A stretch of DNA of 38,508 nt from a virus, in IMG/VR virus record IMGVR_UViG_3300021962_000266, positions 1 to 38,508 of that record. One strand, given 5' to 3'. The notes beneath the pieces are model-generated. The model worked only from the letters and a program-made list of their open reading frames with translations, was not told the origin of the DNA and searched no databases. This document shows positions 4,035-10,793 of the stretch, piece by piece (the stretch's first letter is position 1; every line of letters starts with the position of its first letter). The position numbers were made by a program, and so were the translations under genes.

Positions 4035-4397
4035 ATGAAAGATTTGAAAAAAATTATACATGAAAGTTTGGGTAGAGTTCTTGAAAACCAAATGGCGAGT
4101 CCTGTTGGGATGCAAGGAATGAGCGAAGCACCAAAACCTGACGCTAAATCAACTAATGAAAAAAAGGCTGATGTTAAAGTTCCTGAAACTTGTTTCGGTG
4201 GTCCTAAAAAACAAGCCGGTGGATTGGTGGCTTTGATTCAAGTCTTGATGAAAGACCACGACAGAAATGGTGAAAGAGCTGTTGAGGAAATTAAAAGATT
4301 CTCTGAAGGTAAATCAAAACCAGACCCAAAAGAAGTGGTTCAGATTTTAGAAAAATACAACAAACACAAATACTTGGGATACGCAGGTTGTTTCTAA
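4035..4397 (+). CDS. small basic protein, candidate packaged virion protein
   Basis: A 120-residue protein starting MKDLKKIIHESLGRVLENQ. The N-terminus resembles a short amphipathic targeting peptide and contains IHE-S, close to the (L/I)xE-(A/S/G) sites cut by T4-type prohead proteases. A Lys/Pro-rich linker is followed by a helical segment (GGLVALIQVLMKDHDRNGER) and the C-terminus YLGYAGCF. It follows a late-type promoter and ends at a strong terminator. Packaging in the head is inferred from the N-terminus and from similar starts in the genes at 4896 and 29508; function is unknown. Confidence 0.6.
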   Translation: MKDLKKIIHESLGRVLENQMASPVGMQGMSEAPKPDAKSTNEKKADVKVPETCFGGPKKQAGGLVALIQVLMKDHDRNGERAVEEIKRFSEGKSKPDPKEVVQILEKYNKHKYLGYAGCF

Positions 4398-4416
4398 GTT
4401 AAAAGATATTAAAAAG

Positions 4417-4446
4417 AAAAGGTGGTCAATGACCACCTTTTTTTGT
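4417..4446. terminator. bidirectional terminator between the 4035 gene and tmRNA
   Basis: GGTGGTCA (4421-4428) pairs with TGACCACC (4430-4437), flanked by A-rich and T-rich runs. On the plus strand it ends the gene at 4035; on the minus strand it lies just past the tmRNA 3' end at 4450. Confidence 0.85.
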
Positions 4447-4449
4447 TTG

Positions 4450-4830
4450 TGGAGGTGGAGGGTATCGAACCCTCGTCCAGTCTACCTTGACCGAAAGGTA
4501 CTACACGTTTAGGTCAACATTTGCTAATGTTCCGAACTTCACAATTCCCTTATTTTATAGTGGTTCGGTTTACTGAGAACTAATCCTCCACTTGTTTCTT
4601 TTAAGATAGAAACCACACCTCTAAAGACTTCTGTTCCTAGGTTGTATGTCTCCCGACCTGAGTGTTATAGCGATTAGGCTACAACTGAAGCTTCTTCACG
4701 GAACAAACCGCAAGCCGCCATGTTATTTAAAACGTCGCCGTCTAATTTTTTTAAATCAGTTTTTAATGAGTTAATTCAGCTCATACGTGCACCTGTCAAC
4801 CAACAATACCTGTCGATTCCAGTCACCCCC
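4450..4830 (-). ncRNA. ssrA: tmRNA (ssrA), phage-encoded
   Basis: A complete one-piece tmRNA of about 381 nt, which rescues stalled ribosomes and tags the unfinished protein for degradation. The 5' end GGGGGTGACTGGAATCGACA and the 3' end GAGGGTTCGATACCCTC then CACCTCC form the tRNA-like domain. The 7-bp acceptor GGGGGUG/CACCUCC contains G3-U70, the alanyl-tRNA synthetase identity pair. CCA is not encoded. The resume codon is inferred as GGC at 4739-4737, after UUAGAC, as in other tmRNAs. The tag reading frame (4739-4674, stop TAA) gives 21 residues starting GDVLNNMAACG and ending REEASVVA. It has a Bacteroidota promoter upstream and a terminator downstream, so it is an independent unit. Confidence 0.95.
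4674..4739 (-). other. tmRNA tag-peptide reading frame
   Basis: Twenty-one sense codons plus TAA. The tag starts GDVLNN and ends FREEASVVA. It is longer than the GENNYALAA-type tag known from Bacteroides and ends VVA rather than LAA. The start is inferred from the conserved sequence before the resume codon. Confidence 0.75.
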
Positions 4831-4848
4831 ATATTTCAAAGAACACTA

Positions 4849-4879
4849 CAAATATAGTACAACTATAAATATATTCCAA
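4849..4879 (-). promoter_or_regulatory. Bacteroidota-type promoter of the tmRNA gene
   Basis: On the minus strand TTG (4879-4877) and TATATTTG (4856-4849) are separated by 20 nt. Transcription should start near 4842, so a short 5' leader would be removed by RNase P. Confidence 0.7.
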
Positions 4880-4880
4880 G

Positions 4881-4888
4881 TATTTATA
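4881..4888 (+). promoter_or_regulatory. late-type TATTTATA element
   Basis: TATTTATA ends 7 nt before the ATG at 4896. It is immediately next to the -33 region of the divergent tmRNA promoter. Confidence 0.55.
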
Positions 4889-4895
4889 ATAAATT

Positions 4896-6743
4896 ATGAA
4901 ATTGGTTCAAATTTTATCAGAGGCAAAGAAAGACGATGTCAAAAAGGAATTACTAAGCAAGTTCCCTGATGCCGAAACATATATTGATGCTGCAATCAGG
5001 TCCGATTCAACTGGATACAAATATATGGATTATATCAAAAAAAGTTTTGAGGATTTGTATCCTAAACTTAAATCTTGGGATAATGCCGATAAAATTTTTG
5101 AATATTTTGACAACATAACTTGGTGGGAAAAAAACTACAACAAAATTTCCGTTGATGATTTAGATTCAATTTATGAAGATGCAAAAGCGGATGGTTCAAC
5201 AGGAACATTACTCTCCACAATATCAAGTATTAAACCTGAATCAGTAAAAGATATAAATTCTTGGGACATTAGATTATTAAAATATGTCAGAGACTTTATC
5301 AATCAGAAAAAAACAAGAAAAGAGTTGGAAAAAGAAGCCAAGTCAGGTGCTGAGTTAGTTTTCCAATCCCCAAACAAAACCGTATTGGTTTTCAAAGTCA
5401 ATACACATGCGGCATCTTGTTTCTATGGTGCCAACACCAGATGGTGTACAACATCAAAAACAGGTCCGGGTCATTTCCAAAGAGAAACTCAAAACTATGT
5501 TTTATATTATGTTATTGACAGAACGAGAAATAGGGGTAAGATAGCCGTTCAGGTCCCAAGAACTAAAAGGGGTTCAATTATCACTTGGAGGGAAGATGAC
5601 CAAAAAAAAGATTTACAATACTTGATTGAAACTTACCCTGAAGTTGAGGAATTTTTTGGTGAAATGATAGGTAAGTCACCATCAATCAATTTTTTGAAAT
5701 CTTATGACCCTGACAAAGAAGAATTTTCTTGGAGAGCCGCCGAATATCCCGATGAACTTATTTCTTCAATTAAGAATGTTAAAGACCCAAAAACGGAAGA
5801 AGTAAAAACCATTGTAAATATTAGATTTCAAGGAGATGAGAGTTTTTGGGACTTATTTTCTGAAGATGAGTCTGAGTATGACCGAGCAATAATTGACACA
5901 ATAATGAGTTCTTATGGCTCATCATGGGATTTTTATGATAGATATTCAATGGATGATGAATGGAATGAAGGTTACATATGGCGATACGCCACTGAAGAAC
6001 AGAAAGAAAAATTTTCTGAGTTGTCTAAAAAGTTATTTCCAAACTATATTGAGTATTTGACTCAAAACGATTTGGAGGGAATGCCAAAAGATTTTAATGA
6101 GGCAATTGAAGTCGCATTTTCATCTGAGGTTAGTGATATTATTGATGAATACACATTCTCGTTAAACAATAGAGCAGAGGCAAGTGTTAAAGAATATTTG
6201 TTTGATGAATATTGTGAAATATTTAAACCGTATGGTGCCGAAACTGTAAGTTGTTTTTATTCATATTTGTTTCCAAAAGAAGGTTTAATCCAATTGTTAT
6301 CTGAATATCCGTCAACGGACATCTTTAATTCAATGAAAAGATACGTTACAGAAAAAATCAGTGGACCATATGAGTTACAAGATGTAGGATATCAACAATA
6401 TGGTGATGACTCGGAAGACCATTTTACGTATTTTAGACAAAAAATTGATAATTTAATAGATTCTATGGAAACGGCTTTGGAAAGTGATGATACTGACTTT
6501 GCAAAAAAAGAAGAAGAGTATAATAACTTCATGAAGAATTTGAAAAAATTTAATGTTGGTCCAGGTAGTTGGTATAAATTACCCGCAGATAAAAACTACG
6601 AATTTAAAATTAGAAGTGTTGATTTTAAAGAAGGTACCGTAGATACTATAGTTAGGTCTGTAAAAACAAATACAGTGACAGAACACAATCCAACTTACGA
6701 AGAATTTATAACTTTATTGTATAATTACCAACTTTTTAGATAA
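4896..6743 (+). CDS. large unknown protein with RWCT motif and capsid-targeting-like N-terminus
   Basis: A 615-residue acidic protein of unknown function. Its start MKLVQILSE-AKK looks like the capsid-targeting sequence of T4 internal proteins and ends in a perfect (L/I)xE-A prohead-protease site (cut predicted after Glu9). Around residues 170-215 lies a conserved-looking block, ASCFYGANTRWCTTSK followed by YVLYYVIDR and GKIAVQV, with Cys-x(9)-Cys and an invariant-looking RWCT. The remaining two thirds are Asp/Glu/Tyr-rich without membrane segments. By analogy with T4 Alt and the internal proteins it may be packaged and injected with the DNA. No catalytic family was recognised. It lies divergently from tmRNA and just before the M20 peptidase. 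Confidence 0.6.
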   Translation: MKLVQILSEAKKDDVKKELLSKFPDAETYIDAAIRSDSTGYKYMDYIKKSFEDLYPKLKSWDNADKIFEYFDNITWWEKNYNKISVDDLDSIYEDAKADGSTGTLLSTISSIKPESVKDINSWDIRLLKYVRDFINQKKTRKELEKEAKSGAELVFQSPNKTVLVFKVNTHAASCFYGANTRWCTTSKTGPGHFQRETQNYVLYYVIDRTRNRGKIAVQVPRTKRGSIITWREDDQKKDLQYLIETYPEVEEFFGEMIGKSPSINFLKSYDPDKEEFSWRAAEYPDELISSIKNVKDPKTEEVKTIVNIRFQGDESFWDLFSEDESEYDRAIIDTIMSSYGSSWDFYDRYSMDDEWNEGYIWRYATEEQKEKFSELSKKLFPNYIEYLTQNDLEGMPKDFNEAIEVAFSSEVSDIIDEYTFSLNNRAEASVKEYLFDEYCEIFKPYGAETVSCFYSYLFPKEGLIQLLSEYPSTDIFNSMKRYVTEKISGPYELQDVGYQQYGDDSEDHFTYFRQKIDNLIDSMETALESDDTDFAKKEEEYNNFMKNLKKFNVGPGSWYKLPADKNYEFKIRSVDFKEGTVDTIVRSVKTNTVTEHNPTYEEFITLLYNYQLFR

Positions 6744-6751
6744 TTTTTTTG

Positions 6752-6759
6752 TATCTTTG
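6752..6759 (+). promoter_or_regulatory. Bacteroidota-type -7 box TATCTTTG
   Basis: TATCTTTG ends 7 nt before the ATG at 6767; the -33 element is not clear. It begins 9 nt after the preceding stop codon, giving the peptidase its own host-type promoter. Confidence 0.6.
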
Positions 6760-6766
6760 CATACAA

Positions 6767-7600
6767 ATGGAAAGATTGCAATTATTAAAGGACGTATTAT
6801 CCGTTCCAACCTGTACTTACAAGGAAGATAAAATGGTTGAGTTTTTGAAAAACTACTTAACAGAAAAAAACTATGACTTTTTTGTTGATGAACACAATAA
6901 TGTTTATGTCGCCAAAACTTCACCTGAATTTGAGGGTCAACCTTTTCCATGTGTGGTTGCTCATACCGATACCGTGCATTGGGGTATGAAACCAATTAAC
7001 ATTAAAGAGGAAATTAAGAGAGATTTCCAACTCAAAGAAAAATTAGCGTTAAAAGGTTATGATGATGATGGTCATCCGTCAGGGATTGGTGGAGACGACA
7101 AGGCTGGTGTCTTTGGTTGTTTAGTTTGTTTGGAAGATTTACCTCACATTAAAGTGGCGTTGTTTGTTTCTGAAGAAACGGGTTGTCACGGCTCAAAAAA
7201 AGCGGATGAAAATTTCTTTTCCAATGTTGGTTACACCATCCAATTTGACGGACCTGAAAATTATATGATTACCGAAGTGTGTCACGGTGTTAGATTGTTT
7301 GACCGTGATAGTGAATTTTTCAATGTGATTGATTCCGTATTCAAAGAGAAGATGGAATATCACGAATATATGATTCACCCCTACACTGACGTGGCTATGT
7401 TAAAAAAGAAGTTTGACTTTGCCTGTGTGAATATCTCCATCGGTTATTACAACTACCATACACCACATGAATATGTTGTCTTAGATGACGTAGAAAGAGG
7501 TATTGACGTGTGTAAGACAATCATTGAACGTCTTGGTAATACCAAACAAGAATATGTATATAAACCTATTAGGATGGATTATAATTCTTGGACTTACTAA
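6767..7600 (+). CDS. M20-family metallopeptidase (aminopeptidase or tripeptidase-like)
   Basis: A 277-residue cytoplasmic enzyme predicted to hydrolyse small peptides with a two-zinc centre. The metal-site residues of the M20 clan can be followed in order: VVAHTDT (His66, Asp68), GGDDKAG (Asp110), SEETG (Glu136/137, the catalytic base and a ligand), QFDG (Asp161) and YNYHTPHE (His231/His234). The protein is shorter than typical PepT, suggesting a reduced lid domain. ATG at 6767 is chosen because the TATCTTTG promoter box lies just upstream and would overlap a longer reading. It sits between the RWCT-motif gene and ClpC, near tmRNA, so it could finish degradation of unfoldase products and recycle amino acids for phage synthesis; that link is inference. 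Confidence 0.85.
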   Translation: MERLQLLKDVLSVPTCTYKEDKMVEFLKNYLTEKNYDFFVDEHNNVYVAKTSPEFEGQPFPCVVAHTDTVHWGMKPINIKEEIKRDFQLKEKLALKGYDDDGHPSGIGGDDKAGVFGCLVCLEDLPHIKVALFVSEETGCHGSKKADENFFSNVGYTIQFDGPENYMITEVCHGVRLFDRDSEFFNVIDSVFKEKMEYHEYMIHPYTDVAMLKKKFDFACVNISIGYYNYHTPHEYVVLDDVERGIDVCKTIIERLGNTKQEYVYKPIRMDYNSWTY

Positions 7601-7604
7601 ATAG

Positions 7605-7630
7605 AAAAGGGGACATTGTCCCCTTTTTTT
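7605..7630 (+). terminator. intrinsic terminator after the M20 peptidase
   Basis: AAAAGGGGA pairs with TCCCCTTTT around CATTG and runs into a T tract, 5 nt after the stop codon. Confidence 0.85.
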
Positions 7631-7637
7631 ATACCCA

Positions 7638-7646
7638 TATATTTAT
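7638..7646 (+). promoter_or_regulatory. late-type TATATTTAT element
   Basis: TATATTTAT ends 5 nt before the ATG at 7652 and directly follows the peptidase terminator. Confidence 0.65.
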
Positions 7647-7651
7647 GATGT

Positions 7652-8164
7652 ATGGGAAAACTAATTCTTACAGAAGAAGAAAAGAAATCAATTCTAAAAT
7701 TGTATTTGAATGAGGATGATTATCTTTCCCAATTAAAAAATTTTTTTAGACCAAATAAAAAACAACAAACATTTAGGTTAGAGGATATTGTTTCCCCAAA
7801 TACTTGGACTCACGCAACTTTGTCTGATGAGTTAATGAACACCTTAAAACAAGGTAATAGTTTTATTGGTAAAAAAGAAGATTTAAGAAAATTTAACATT
7901 CCACATAAAGGAACGTTCGCCACATTTGTAAATCAACATTCACCAAATTTTTTAAAGGGGGGGTTATTTCACGGTTTCAAACAACATCCTTATTTAATAA
8001 CAACTGAATTACCTGACGAAGCCTTCCAACCTAATTGGAATAGTAAAAACTATAGCTCTTTTGAGGAAAGTTCAAATGTTGGTGTGTTAAAACCCGACTA
8101 CAGAAACGCAAGTAATTTTAAATTATGGAAAAATGTTGGTGATAATGAATATATTGAATACTAA
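7652..8164 (+). CDS. hypothetical protein with TEEEKKSIL N-terminus
   Basis: A 170-residue protein starting MGKLILTEEEKKSILKLYLNE. The N-terminal helix resembles those of the genes at 4035 and 29508 and may be a short targeting or binding peptide. The rest is mixed, rich in Asn, Phe and Pro (HKGTFATFVNQHSPNFLKGG), with no cysteine, signal or membrane segment and no recognised family. It is a single-gene unit between two terminators, with a late-type promoter 5 nt from the start. Confidence 0.6.
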   Translation: MGKLILTEEEKKSILKLYLNEDDYLSQLKNFFRPNKKQQTFRLEDIVSPNTWTHATLSDELMNTLKQGNSFIGKKEDLRKFNIPHKGTFATFVNQHSPNFLKGGLFHGFKQHPYLITTELPDEAFQPNWNSKNYSSFEESSNVGVLKPDYRNASNFKLWKNVGDNEYIEY

Positions 8165-8192
8165 AAAAAAAGGGTCTTACGACCCTTTTTCT
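8165..8192. terminator. bidirectional terminator between convergent genes
   Basis: AAAAAGGGTC and GACCCTTTTT form the stem around TTAC. The clpC stop codon (8179-8177) lies in this loop, so the hairpin overlaps the end of that gene while also ending the gene at 7652. Confidence 0.85.
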
Positions 8193-10186
8193 ATTTTGAT
8201 TGATTCATCATACATGAGGATGTAATGTTCGTTTTCCACTACATTACCCACCAAGTATTCTTCTGAGATAAAATCTTCTACTTCATCCTGAATTGCTCTT
8301 TTGATTGGTCGTGCACCAAATGCCTCGTCAAATCCTACCTTGGCAATGTGTTGAATCATTGACTCGTCACAAACGAAGTGTAATTTCAACTCCTCCAAAC
8401 GAGTAATCAATTTTGACATTTCAAGACGAACAATTTGTTCAATTTCAGGTTGTTTCAAAGAGTTGAATACAATAACTTCGTCAATACGGTTCAAGAACTC
8501 AGGAGAAAAATAGTTCTTCATCTCTTTTTGGAGAATCTGACGTTTGTATTCTTCTTGAGTTGATGAACTTGATAAAGTATTGAATCCAATACCGTTTCCA
8601 AAATCTTGAAGTTTTTTTACACCCAAGTTTGAGGTCATAATAATCAAACAATTTTTGAAGTTAATTTTTCTACCCAAAGAATCGGTCAAGTGACCTTCGT
8701 CCAACATCTGTAACAATGTATTGAAGATTTCTTTGTTTGCCTTTTCAACCTCATCAAAAAGGATTACTGAATAGGGTTTGTTTTTAACCTGTTCGGTCAA
8801 CTGTCCACCTTCATCATAACCAACGTAACCTGGAGGGGCTCCAATCAATTTAGAAATGGTGTGTTTTTCTTGGAACTCTGACATATCCACACGGATAAGG
8901 TTGTTTTCACTACCAAAAATTTGTTTTGCCAGTTGTTTTGCCAAGTGAGTTTTACCTACACCTGTTGAACCCAAGAAAATGAATGAACCGATGGGTTTAT
9001 TTGGGTCTTTAATTCCCAATCGGTTTCTACGGATTGATTTTGCGATTTTGGTAACCGCTTCTTCTTGTCCGATAACTTTATCCATCAGTGATTTATCCAA
9101 ACCAATAAGACTTGTTTTATCATCAACGGAAATTTTTGATACCGGAATTTTAGTCATTGACGATACTACATCTAAAACAAGTTCCAACGAGATTTCTCTT
9201 TTCTTTTCAGAGATTTCTTGTTCATACTTTTCTTTCTCCGCCTCCAATTTTGCGGAAATTTTCTTTTCCTTGTTCCTCAATTCTGCCGCTTCTTCATACT
9301 TCTGTTTCTTCACCACTTCTTTTTTCTTCTCACCAATTTCACGAAGAGCCGCAGTTAATTTTTCAATACTTTCAGGAACTTTTGCCTCAACTTGAGCACG
9401 GGCACCAACTTCATCCATAATGTCGAACGCTTTGTCGGGAAACTCACGGTCTGTGATGTAACGGTCAGCAAGGTTTACACATAGTTCAAGTACTTCATCA
9501 GAATAACTTACTTTGTGATAAGACTCATACTTACCTCTCAAGTTTTCAAGGATGATGAGTGTTTCTTTTTTGGATGGAGAATCTACTACGACTTTTTGGA
9601 ATCGACGTTCCAAAGCCCCATCTTTTTCAAAGTTAGTACGATACTCGTCTAATGTTGTTGCTCCGATACATTGAATCTCTCCACGAGCAAGTGCGGGTTT
9701 GAAGATGTTGGATGCGTCCATAGAACCTGAAGCATTACCGGCTCCAACGATGGTATGAATCTCATCGATGAAAACTACAATGTCAGGATTTTTAGAAAGT
9801 TCGTCAATAATAACTTTCAAACGTTCTTCAAACTGTCCACGGTATTTTGTACCCGCAACAATAGAAGTCATGTCTAACAAAACGATTCGTTTGTTCAAAA
9901 GGTTTCGTGGACAATCTCCGTTGAAGATTTTCATTGCTAATCCTTCTACGATTGCAGTTTTACCACAACCCGGCTCACCAATGATAATAGGGTTGTTTTT
10001 CTTTCTACGAGAAAGAATTTGTGCAATTCGTTGAATTTCTTGTTCTCTACCAACTACAGGGTCCAACTTACCTTCAGACGATAGTTTAATAAGGTCTTTA
10101 GAAAAATTGTCCAATACTGGTGTTGATGAACCTCCACGTTTTGTGGACGGTTTGATGTTGTCGTTATCGTCAATAGAATCAATCAT
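8177..10186 (-). CDS. clpC: ClpC/ClpA-type AAA+ unfoldase lacking the Clp N-domain
   Basis: A 669-residue two-ring ATPase that unfolds proteins for a ClpP-type protease. D1 has Walker A GEPGCGKT (about 70-77) and Walker B VVFIDE (about 137-142). A middle domain (about 275-330) carries a UVR-like KYEEAAELRNKEK, typical of ClpC. D2 has GSTGVGKT (about 406-413), VILFDE, pore GYVGYDEG and the C-terminal FLNRIDEV. The tripeptide IGF at about 533-535 matches the ClpP-binding loop, so it could dock to host ClpP; no clpP is visible here. The N-terminal adaptor-binding domain is replaced by a 20-residue tail. A TATCTTTG box lies 4 nt before the ATG. Confidence 0.95.
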   Translation of the reverse strand: MIDSIDDNDNIKPSTKRGGSSTPVLDNFSKDLIKLSSEGKLDPVVGREQEIQRIAQILSRRKKNNPIIIGEPGCGKTAIVEGLAMKIFNGDCPRNLLNKRIVLLDMTSIVAGTKYRGQFEERLKVIIDELSKNPDIVVFIDEIHTIVGAGNASGSMDASNIFKPALARGEIQCIGATTLDEYRTNFEKDGALERRFQKVVVDSPSKKETLIILENLRGKYESYHKVSYSDEVLELCVNLADRYITDREFPDKAFDIMDEVGARAQVEAKVPESIEKLTAALREIGEKKKEVVKKQKYEEAAELRNKEKKISAKLEAEKEKYEQEISEKKREISLELVLDVVSSMTKIPVSKISVDDKTSLIGLDKSLMDKVIGQEEAVTKIAKSIRRNRLGIKDPNKPIGSFIFLGSTGVGKTHLAKQLAKQIFGSENNLIRVDMSEFQEKHTISKLIGAPPGYVGYDEGGQLTEQVKNKPYSVILFDEVEKANKEIFNTLLQMLDEGHLTDSLGRKINFKNCLIIMTSNLGVKKLQDFGNGIGFNTLSSSSTQEEYKRQILQKEMKNYFSPEFLNRIDEVIVFNSLKQPEIEQIVRLEMSKLITRLEELKLHFVCDESMIQHIAKVGFDEAFGARPIKRAIQDEVEDFISEEYLVGNVVENEHYILMYDESIKIEKGS

Positions 10187-10190
10187 GTTA

Positions 10191-10220
10191 CAAAGATAAT
10201 AGTTTTATTTGATAATTCAA
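10191..10220 (-). promoter_or_regulatory. Bacteroidota-type promoter of clpC
   Basis: On the minus strand TTG (10220-10218) and TATCTTTG (10198-10191) are separated by 19 nt; the box ends 4 nt before the ATG. The first operator-like palindrome begins 3 nt upstream of the -33 element. Confidence 0.75.
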
Positions 10221-10223
10221 CTA

Positions 10224-10236
10224 TGACAATTTGTCA
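10224..10236. promoter_or_regulatory. operator-like palindrome 1, TGACA-ATT-TGTCA
   Basis: A 13-bp dyad lying between the divergent clpC and UVR-protein promoters, immediately upstream of the clpC -33 element. Its centre is 21 bp from that of palindrome 2. Confidence 0.65.
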
Positions 10237-10243
10237 AACTAAA

Positions 10244-10258
10244 CTGACAAAATGTCAG
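10244..10258. promoter_or_regulatory. operator-like palindrome 2, CTGACA-AAA-TGTCAG
   Basis: A 15-bp dyad with the same TGACA-N3-TGTCA core as palindrome 1 and two helical turns away. It directly adjoins the presumed -33 of the plus-strand promoter, so the arrangement mirrors palindrome 1 and clpC. Confidence 0.65.
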
Positions 10259-10259
10259 G

Positions 10260-10290
10260 TTTACTTGTTTGGCATAGTTTTGTATATTTA
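10260..10290 (+). promoter_or_regulatory. promoter of the UVR-protein gene, TTTA-N19-TATATTTA
   Basis: A weaker match: TTTA 10260-10263 and TATATTTA 10283-10290, 19 nt apart. The ATG at 10329 follows a 38-nt A-rich leader. Confidence 0.45.
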
Positions 10291-10328
10291 CAGATACAAA
10301 GATAAAAAATAAAAATTAGAAAAAAAAT

Positions 10329-10793
10329 ATGTTTAATTTATTTGGAAGAAATCACGGAAAATCTCTTAAAGAGATGATGCAGGAACTTGATGAAATGATG
10401 GAATCTTTAAATTGGGAAGAAACCACTAAACCTAGTGACGAAATTACTGAAAAGACTGAAAAGGGTAGTGATGATAATGGTGATTGGATTAAAACCACAT
10501 ATATATCACCTAGTGGTGTTAGATACTCCATGACCACAACCTATTATGATGGTACACCCAAAAGTTTTAATAAACCAAAGAACGAGTTATCAGTTTTGAA
10601 ACGTCAGTTAGAAAAAGCTGTTGAAGAACAAGACTTTGAAAAAGCGGTTGAACTCAGAGATAAAATTAAAAACTTTGAGACCAATAAACAAGAAATTGAA
10701 AAATTGGAGACCGAGTTAAAGACTGCGGTTGACAGTCAGGACTTTGAAACGGCAATCAAAATACGAGACCAGATTAAAAAAATGAAATCCTAA
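10329..10793 (+). CDS. two-UVR-motif protein, candidate ClpC partner
   Basis: A 154-residue protein. Two tandem UVR motifs occupy the C-terminal half: LKRQLEKAVEEQDFEKAVEL (about 90-109, continuing RDKIK) and LETELKTAVDSQDFETAIKI (about 126-145, continuing RDQIKK). UVR motifs occur in UvrB, UvrC, McsA and in the ClpC middle domain; McsA-type proteins act on ClpC. No zinc-binding CxxC units as in McsA are present. The N-terminal 75 residues contain an amphipathic helix (KSLKEMMQELDEMMESLNW) and a Tyr/Thr-rich strand. Divergent from phage clpC with shared palindromes between them, it is probably an adaptor or regulator of that unfoldase. This role is inferred from motif and location. Confidence 0.8.
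   Translation: MFNLFGRNHGKSLKEMMQELDEMMESLNWEETTKPSDEITEKTEKGSDDNGDWIKTTYISPSGVRYSMTTTYYDGTPKSFNKPKNELSVLKRQLEKAVEEQDFEKAVELRDKIKNFETNKQEIEKLETELKTAVDSQDFETAIKIRDQIKKMKS

Follow-up and report, generated by a model that had tools for sequence, protein, structure and literature searches.

The window analysed here is a 38,508-base virus record (G000), a fragment of the genome of an uncultured large phage. At its left end, six tRNA genes are followed by a gene for transfer-messenger RNA (tmRNA) and then by a region encoding an M20 peptidase, a ClpC-type unfoldase and a protein with two UVR repeats. Judging from the sequences, the tmRNA, ClpC and M20 are best read as a phage trans-translation and Clp proteolysis module, that is, a module of protein quality control. 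We give this reading a probability of about 0.6, and under it the virus itself probably runs part of the protein quality control of the cell. Selection on the tmRNA and its tag, promoters common to the module genes, linkage to SmpB and ClpP genes in relatives and the proximity of tmRNA and M20 genes in Cellulophaga phages all support it more strongly than synteny does. The components are known and their combination is new. Phage tmRNA, SmpB, ClpP and Clp ATPases have previously been listed singly in large phages, without a pathway, and the combination was not described in the literature searched, which covered few subscription papers and is no proof of absence.

A sequence-only reading of the same DNA had placed the tmRNA, the peptidase, ClpC and the UVR protein in one interval. 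All four were confirmed, the tmRNA by Rfam and the three proteins by Pfam and, with the exception of the UVR protein, by PHROGs (Table 1). A ClpC-based scan of viral contigs yielded 586 relatives, and the comparison covered the best 80; the window's own fragments (L081-L083) enter into a few of the counts among these.

The tmRNA and its tag

The window tmRNA aligns with the full Rfam model (positions 1-374) at 100.2 bits (gathering cut-off 47; E-value 3.6e-38); ARAGORN did not detect it in the window. In an alignment of 40 distinct tmRNAs, 99.0% of the cells in the acceptor, T and proximal H2 stems are paired. Changes on both sides occur at 11 pairs, and the number of cells altered on both sides is 113 versus 32 in shuffles, a value that none of 500 shuffles reached. 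The alanine identity pair G3-U70 is invariant (40/40).

The tag is under purifying selection as a peptide: the ratio of non-synonymous to synonymous changes (pN/pS) is 0.35 in its reading frame, and 0.75 and 3.2 in the other two. We rejected the possibility that it is conserved merely as RNA structure, because, of the three frames, only that of the tag agrees with the codon pattern. The window tag has 21 residues followed by TAA; across relatives the tags have 21-22 residues, are of the type GNVLNKMAAIGLIREDAAVVA and end mostly in -VA, and in a more distant clade the tag reads GNTNFWSLVNESVNAPVTEELLAA. ARAGORN independently reads the identical tag frame in one relative (L035). The commonest length of known tmRNA tags is 10 residues (PMC11915505). 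Also of note is that the tag type varies within these phages. In a 348-kb phage with a ClpP-SmpB pair (G030; L341), ARAGORN reads the short tag EVEYAYAA in a tmRNA of 464 nt.

Stem-loops with T runs, like the terminator of the window, also lie downstream of the tmRNA in many relatives. The boxA-like element GTTCTTTGAA is exact in 43 of 99 tmRNA loci and present in a near form in another 10, and it resembles the antitermination boxes of rrn leaders. Beside the tmRNA of the closest relative (G001, positions 185000-214500; L338, L339) there are 28 tRNA genes in 30 kb.

Unfoldase, UVR protein and peptidase

The window ClpC has two AAA+ domains, whose Walker A and B motifs are intact; across the family the Walker motifs, pore loops and sensor 2 are conserved. 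Its closest relatives in the PDB are the ClpC proteins of Bacillus subtilis and Staphylococcus aureus. As the alignment with them begins only at ClpC residue 155, the N-domain is missing, a point absent from the sequence-only reading, and hence we call the protein ClpC-type rather than a full ClpC. The same holds for its homologues: the full-length phage proteins (664-687 residues) have no N-domain, and in most of 77 ClpC sequences just 16-22 residues precede the AAA1 linker. The usual N-domain adaptors would therefore be unable to act on the phage enzyme. These proteins thus represent a natural N-domain-less form, which had previously been constructed in the laboratory. The ClpP-docking loop noticed in the sequence-only reading is indeed kept in the window, and its [IV]GF motif is present in all eight of the commonest variants, which account for 67 of the 77 sequences.

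In the short M-domain, which is of the UVR type, PF02151 matches residues 281-312 with an E-value of 4.5e-4 and 20.3 bits, just below the cut-off of 21.5, and the match aligns with the ClpC M-domain. Its contact aromatic is Y or F in 77/77 phage ClpCs. In S. aureus, the N-domain keeps ClpC in a resting state. The enzyme without the N-domain binds ClpP, yet it is inactive in proteolysis through the M-domain contacts of F436; when F436 is mutated as well, GFP-SsrA is degraded well, and it is the pore that reads the tag (PMC12583610). Since the phage ClpC lacks the N-domain but carries the aromatic, we predict that something must loosen the M-domain contacts.

The UVR protein is a candidate for this role, because it resembles both McsA and the ClpC M-domain in PDB comparisons and keeps the aromatic in both repeats, where F103 and F139 match the M-domain aromatic. 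The aromatics and arginines are retained in 32/32 sequences. Although it shares UVR helical hairpins with this conserved aromatic and arginine with McsA and the M-domain, the window protein gives no full McsA match (NCBIfam 43 bits, cut-off 210). An adaptor that acts on the M-domain and unfolding of an SsrA-tagged protein both have a precedent in ClpC1 of Mycobacterium tuberculosis (PMC6274998). AlphaFold models of the UVR protein (predicted template modelling score, pTM, 0.35) and of the open reading frame (ORF) at 4896-6743 (o4896; pTM 0.40) matched nothing in the PDB at E ≤ 0.001. The UVR gene was found in 39 of the 80 relatives, and a search elsewhere in the relatives without it returned just weak matches, mostly ClpC itself. 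The idea that the M-domain aromatic is lost in UVR-less phages was rejected, as all 77 proteins have Y or F.

The M20 ORF spans 6749-7600, and its true start is probably the ATG at 6767. The protein matches its Pfam family above the cut-off, and the metal-binding and catalytic motifs (HTD, GGDD, EE, D, H) are intact across the family. Because the NCBIfam PepT model gives 38 bits where its cut-off is 255, we term the enzyme PepT-like only. The Cellulophaga phages phi38:1 and Calle_1 (Callevirus) belong to another family; in them, a tmRNA is located some 1.3 kb upstream of the M20 gene, whose product is 32% identical to that of the window, and this arrangement speaks for a link between tmRNA and M20. 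No ClpC, ClpP, SmpB or UVR gene turned up when the complete phi38:1 genome was searched, which shows that M20 does not depend on ClpC. The phi38:1 tmRNA itself (L350; NC_021796.1, 26803-27164; 87.6 bits) is unannotated, overlaps ORF gp041, which is annotated as hypothetical, and encodes a tag of 30 residues, GNNTNAVNAQIEANMEAVNAILNLEVAVGV.

Table 1. Features of the tmRNA-M20-ClpC-UVR region, in window coordinates
Feature	Position	Strand	Basis or detail
Intrinsic terminator (GGTGGTCATTGACCACC + T run), directly 3' of the tmRNA	4411..4437	-	read from sequence
tmRNA (ssrA), one-piece	4447..4830	-	Rfam RF00023; G3-U70 in acceptor stem; 3' end ACAA, CCA incompletely encoded
Tag reading frame of the tmRNA, GDVLNNMAACGLFREEASVVA, stop TAA	4674..4739	-	alignment to relatives
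boxA-like element GTTCTTTGAA, between promoter and mature tmRNA 5' end	4835..4844	-	conserved in relatives
tmRNA promoter, TTG-N20-TATATTTG (Bacteroidota sigma-ABfr type)	4849..4879	-	
M20 peptidase, PepT-like	6767..7600	+	PF01546, phrog_4191, Peptidase T best in PDB
ClpC-type AAA+ unfoldase without N-domain	8177..10186	-	M-domain aromatic Y297; ClpP loop GIGF at 532-535
ClpC promoter, TTG-N19-TATCTTTG	10191..10220	-	
Two-UVR protein, candidate ClpC partner (McsA-like C-terminus)	10329..10793	+	PF02151, E 1.7e-19

Linkage and promoters in relatives

The order tmRNA-M20-ClpC is conserved in nearly all of the roughly 80 relatives, and the co-occurrence of these genes, raised as a check in the sequence-only reading, holds. 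Among the 80 relatives, an iterative profile finds the tmRNA in 63, and many of the remaining contigs stop short of the site where it would lie; M20 is present in 76, o4896 in about 69, a KTSC gene in 77 and a nucleotidyltransferase gene in 76. Because the surrounding genes are equally conserved, synteny alone is weak evidence of a shared function.

More informative is the linkage to the completing parts, SmpB and ClpP. They were counted in two overlapping sets of contigs (n=24 and n=21) picked via ClpC, SmpB or ClpP, with the tmRNA never a selection criterion; the members of both sets are related, four large contigs being approximately the same phage, so that the counts are not independent. 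SmpB (PF01668) occurs in 4/24 and 12/21 contigs, ClpP (PF00574) in 4/24 and 18/21. Among 18 relatives of at least 200 kb, ClpC is present in 18, ClpP in 17, the tmRNA in 16 (and in one more just under the cut-off), M20 in 11 and SmpB in 10. In 47 loci the SmpB gene and the tmRNA are separated by 108-2,223 bp, and ClpC and ClpP are 0.9-1.8 kb apart in ten. It is in other lineages that ClpP neighbours SmpB or ClpC. ClpP precedes SmpB by 21-46 bp in eight loci and by 893 bp in two, which are overlapping stretches of one contig (L153, L178). Most phage SmpBs retain the GKK.[HY]DKR tail, and nearly all phage ClpPs the Ser and His motifs. The order ClpP then SmpB on the same strand, mostly at 21-46 bp, is seen in differently arranged phage contigs (L139, L141, L175-L178, L185, L190, L191). 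In another Bacteroidota phage, Chryseobacterium phage MA9V-3 (L360), a Clp unfoldase gene likewise lies near a tmRNA: a gene annotated ClpX (~280 residues) precedes the phage tmRNA by about 4 kb.

The promoters single out the module genes. The consensus of the Bacteroidota sigma-ABfr type (TTG, 17-22 bases, TAnnTTTG) occurs in 2.75% of random stretches. In full form it is found 5' of the tmRNA in 85 of 99 loci and, counting distinct upstream regions of relatives, 5' of ClpC in 35/57, M20 in 21/48 and SmpB in 5/10. Upstream of the neighbouring genes in relatives it was not found: o4896 0/43, KTSC 0/54, nucleotidyltransferase 0/55 and o13501 0/53. For the UVR gene the count is 8/26 under one start rule and 2/35 under another, which leaves its promoter class uncertain. 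The earlier suggestion that the tmRNA, M20 and ClpC have host-type promoters and the structural genes do not is thus borne out by the relatives, though less so in the window, where M20 has just a -7 element (TATCTTTG at 6752-6759) without a full promoter. Raw counting of matches in the window was uninformative (14 versus 10.6 expected) and was replaced by positional conservation in relatives. We count the common promoters against different expression times of the three genes, and the genes that bear them may be expressed early. The promoter type further supports a Bacteroidota host whose RNA polymerase would transcribe these genes. No host was inferred from a ClpC scan of genome contigs, which used exact peptide patterns; the matches listed were mostly to Opitutales and other Verrucomicrobia, at about 51%. 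Between ClpC and the UVR gene (10224-10257) lie two adjacent, operator-like palindromes, TGACAATTTGTCA and TGACAAAATGTCA.

Proposed mechanism and alternative explanations

In the mechanism that we propose, the module genes would be transcribed by the RNA polymerase of the host. Charged by the host alanyl-tRNA synthetase and carried by SmpB (that of the host here, phage-encoded in some relatives), the phage tmRNA would enter ribosomes stalled on cut or truncated mRNA, free them and append its phage-specific tag. Tagged proteins would be threaded via the pore of the phage ClpC, with N-domain adaptors neither needed nor usable, and delivered into ClpP, again that of the host here and phage-encoded in most relatives. 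In phages that have it, the double-UVR protein would probably loosen the M-domain contacts, and the PepT-like M20 may finish peptides to amino acids. The last two steps are the weakest links. Possible benefits are a supply of free ribosomes despite cleavage of host or phage mRNA, and the recycling of amino acids. We also considered, much more tentatively, an insulated tag-and-destroy route, in which the phage's own ClpC, lacking the N-domain, would be the preferred reader of the long conserved tag. The double-UVR protein would mimic the M-domain and break head-to-head contacts, thus activating ClpC, and rescue and degradation would be uncoupled from host adaptor control. The conserved tag is degron-like, and its reader is directly testable.

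Several findings weigh against the module. The tmRNA sits at the edge of the tRNA array and possibly belongs with the tRNAs. Conservation in this region is just as high for the KTSC and nucleotidyltransferase genes as for the module genes. M20 proteins of the same family occur in phages without ClpC, distant ClpC phages have no M20, and about half of the relatives have no UVR gene. By analogy with the S. aureus enzyme, which without its N-domain needs a mutated aromatic (PMC12583610), the phage ClpCs, which retain theirs, may be inactive in proteolysis. The closest relative (G001, a 268-kb contig with a ClpC 90% identical to that of the window) has neither ClpP nor SmpB, and its ClpP site keeps the neighbours with ClpP gone. 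Because G001 has neither, the window phage probably relies on the SmpB and ClpP of its host; the window stops short of the ClpP site. As a whole, the sequence-only interpretation is therefore partly supported. Its route from tagging to peptide hydrolysis gains from relatives in which SmpB and ClpP adjoin the tmRNA, each other or ClpC, and it loses from the frequent absence and doubtful promoter class of the UVR gene and from M20 and ClpC occurring apart.

Some of these points would follow if the genes were unconnected helpers. The tmRNA would then belong to a tRNA and translation set and its tag be degraded by the host ClpXP, ClpC and ClpP would remove or refold other proteins, such as host regulators or assembly intermediates, M20 would salvage peptides, and adjacency would reflect a stable genome region. 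This is possible, if on balance doubtful. The tRNA array beside the tmRNA, which reaches 28 tRNAs in the closest relative, and the equally syntenic structural neighbours speak for it, as does the Klebsiella phage KP13-7 with ClpA and ClpP and no tmRNA. So do the -VA ends of the tags, which resemble the LVA variant degraded by host Clp proteases. However, it does not explain why the promoter class is common to just the module genes, why ClpP pairs with SmpB and SmpB lies beside the tmRNA, or why M20 is found near a tmRNA in an unrelated phage family.

An unfoldase or disaggregase that serves chiefly virion assembly, without ClpP, appears unlikely. Such a role in assembly or translocation has been proposed for ClpA/ClpX-like proteins of jumbo phages (PMC7824862), ClpC adjoins structural genes, and the closest relative has no ClpP. 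Yet the ClpP-docking loop is retained, ClpP is found in nearly all of the large relatives (17/18), and the promoter of ClpC is of the host type, whereas those of its structural neighbours are not. It is more improbable still that the phage tmRNA is a decoy or competitor of host tmRNA. The tag-less tmRNA-like RNA of phage DS6A, which inhibits the endogenous tmRNA, is a precedent (PMC11915505), and many relatives have no SmpB of their own, but the tmRNA described here has a complete tag frame on which purifying selection acts, and SmpB is co-encoded in some relatives. Hence we favor the trans-translation and Clp proteolysis module, and the linkage and common promoters suggest that large Bacteroidota phages carry such a module.

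It resembles bacterial tmRNA-SmpB with ClpXP, ClpAP or ClpCP in the one-piece tmRNA with G3-U70, a tag frame and the H2 and T stems, in the AAA+ unfoldase with its ClpP loop, and in the SmpB and ClpP of relatives. It differs in being phage-borne, in the length of the tag (the commonest known length is 10 residues, PMC11915505) and its mostly -VA end, and in the N-domain-less ClpC as unfoldase. The Moraphages, large phages of Bacteroidota (PMC12619734), share with the window a core ClpA-like ATPase, a putative peptidase, a prohead protease, T4-type structural genes and Bacteroidota hosts, a likeness in gene content only; that paper mentions no tmRNA and describes no pathway. tmRNA and SmpB were reported in genomes of huge phages by Al-Shayeb et al. 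2020 (PMC7162821), whose main text has no Clp protease, whereas the genes described here are linked by position and promoter class. In tmRNA phages including the OM43 phage Melnitz (PMC9004378), the tmRNA lies beside an early promoter and tagging for recycling was suggested; in contrast, the tmRNA there is two-piece and riboswitch-controlled, and the text of that paper discusses no protease.

The window also carries head genes (terminase, portal, head maturation protease and major head protein). Two ORFs within the interval, o4896 and that at 7652-8164, lie outside the module on present evidence. The proteins of 4035-4397 and o4896, together with those of relatives, have N-termini such as MKLVQILSEAKK and MKDLKKIIHES, which resemble the targeting sequences of T4-type prohead proteases (hydrophobic-x-E before A/S/G), a short motif that makes for a weak test; from this resemblance, both proteins may be head-packaged. 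The o4896 protein also has a conserved YYG..T.WCT-like motif.

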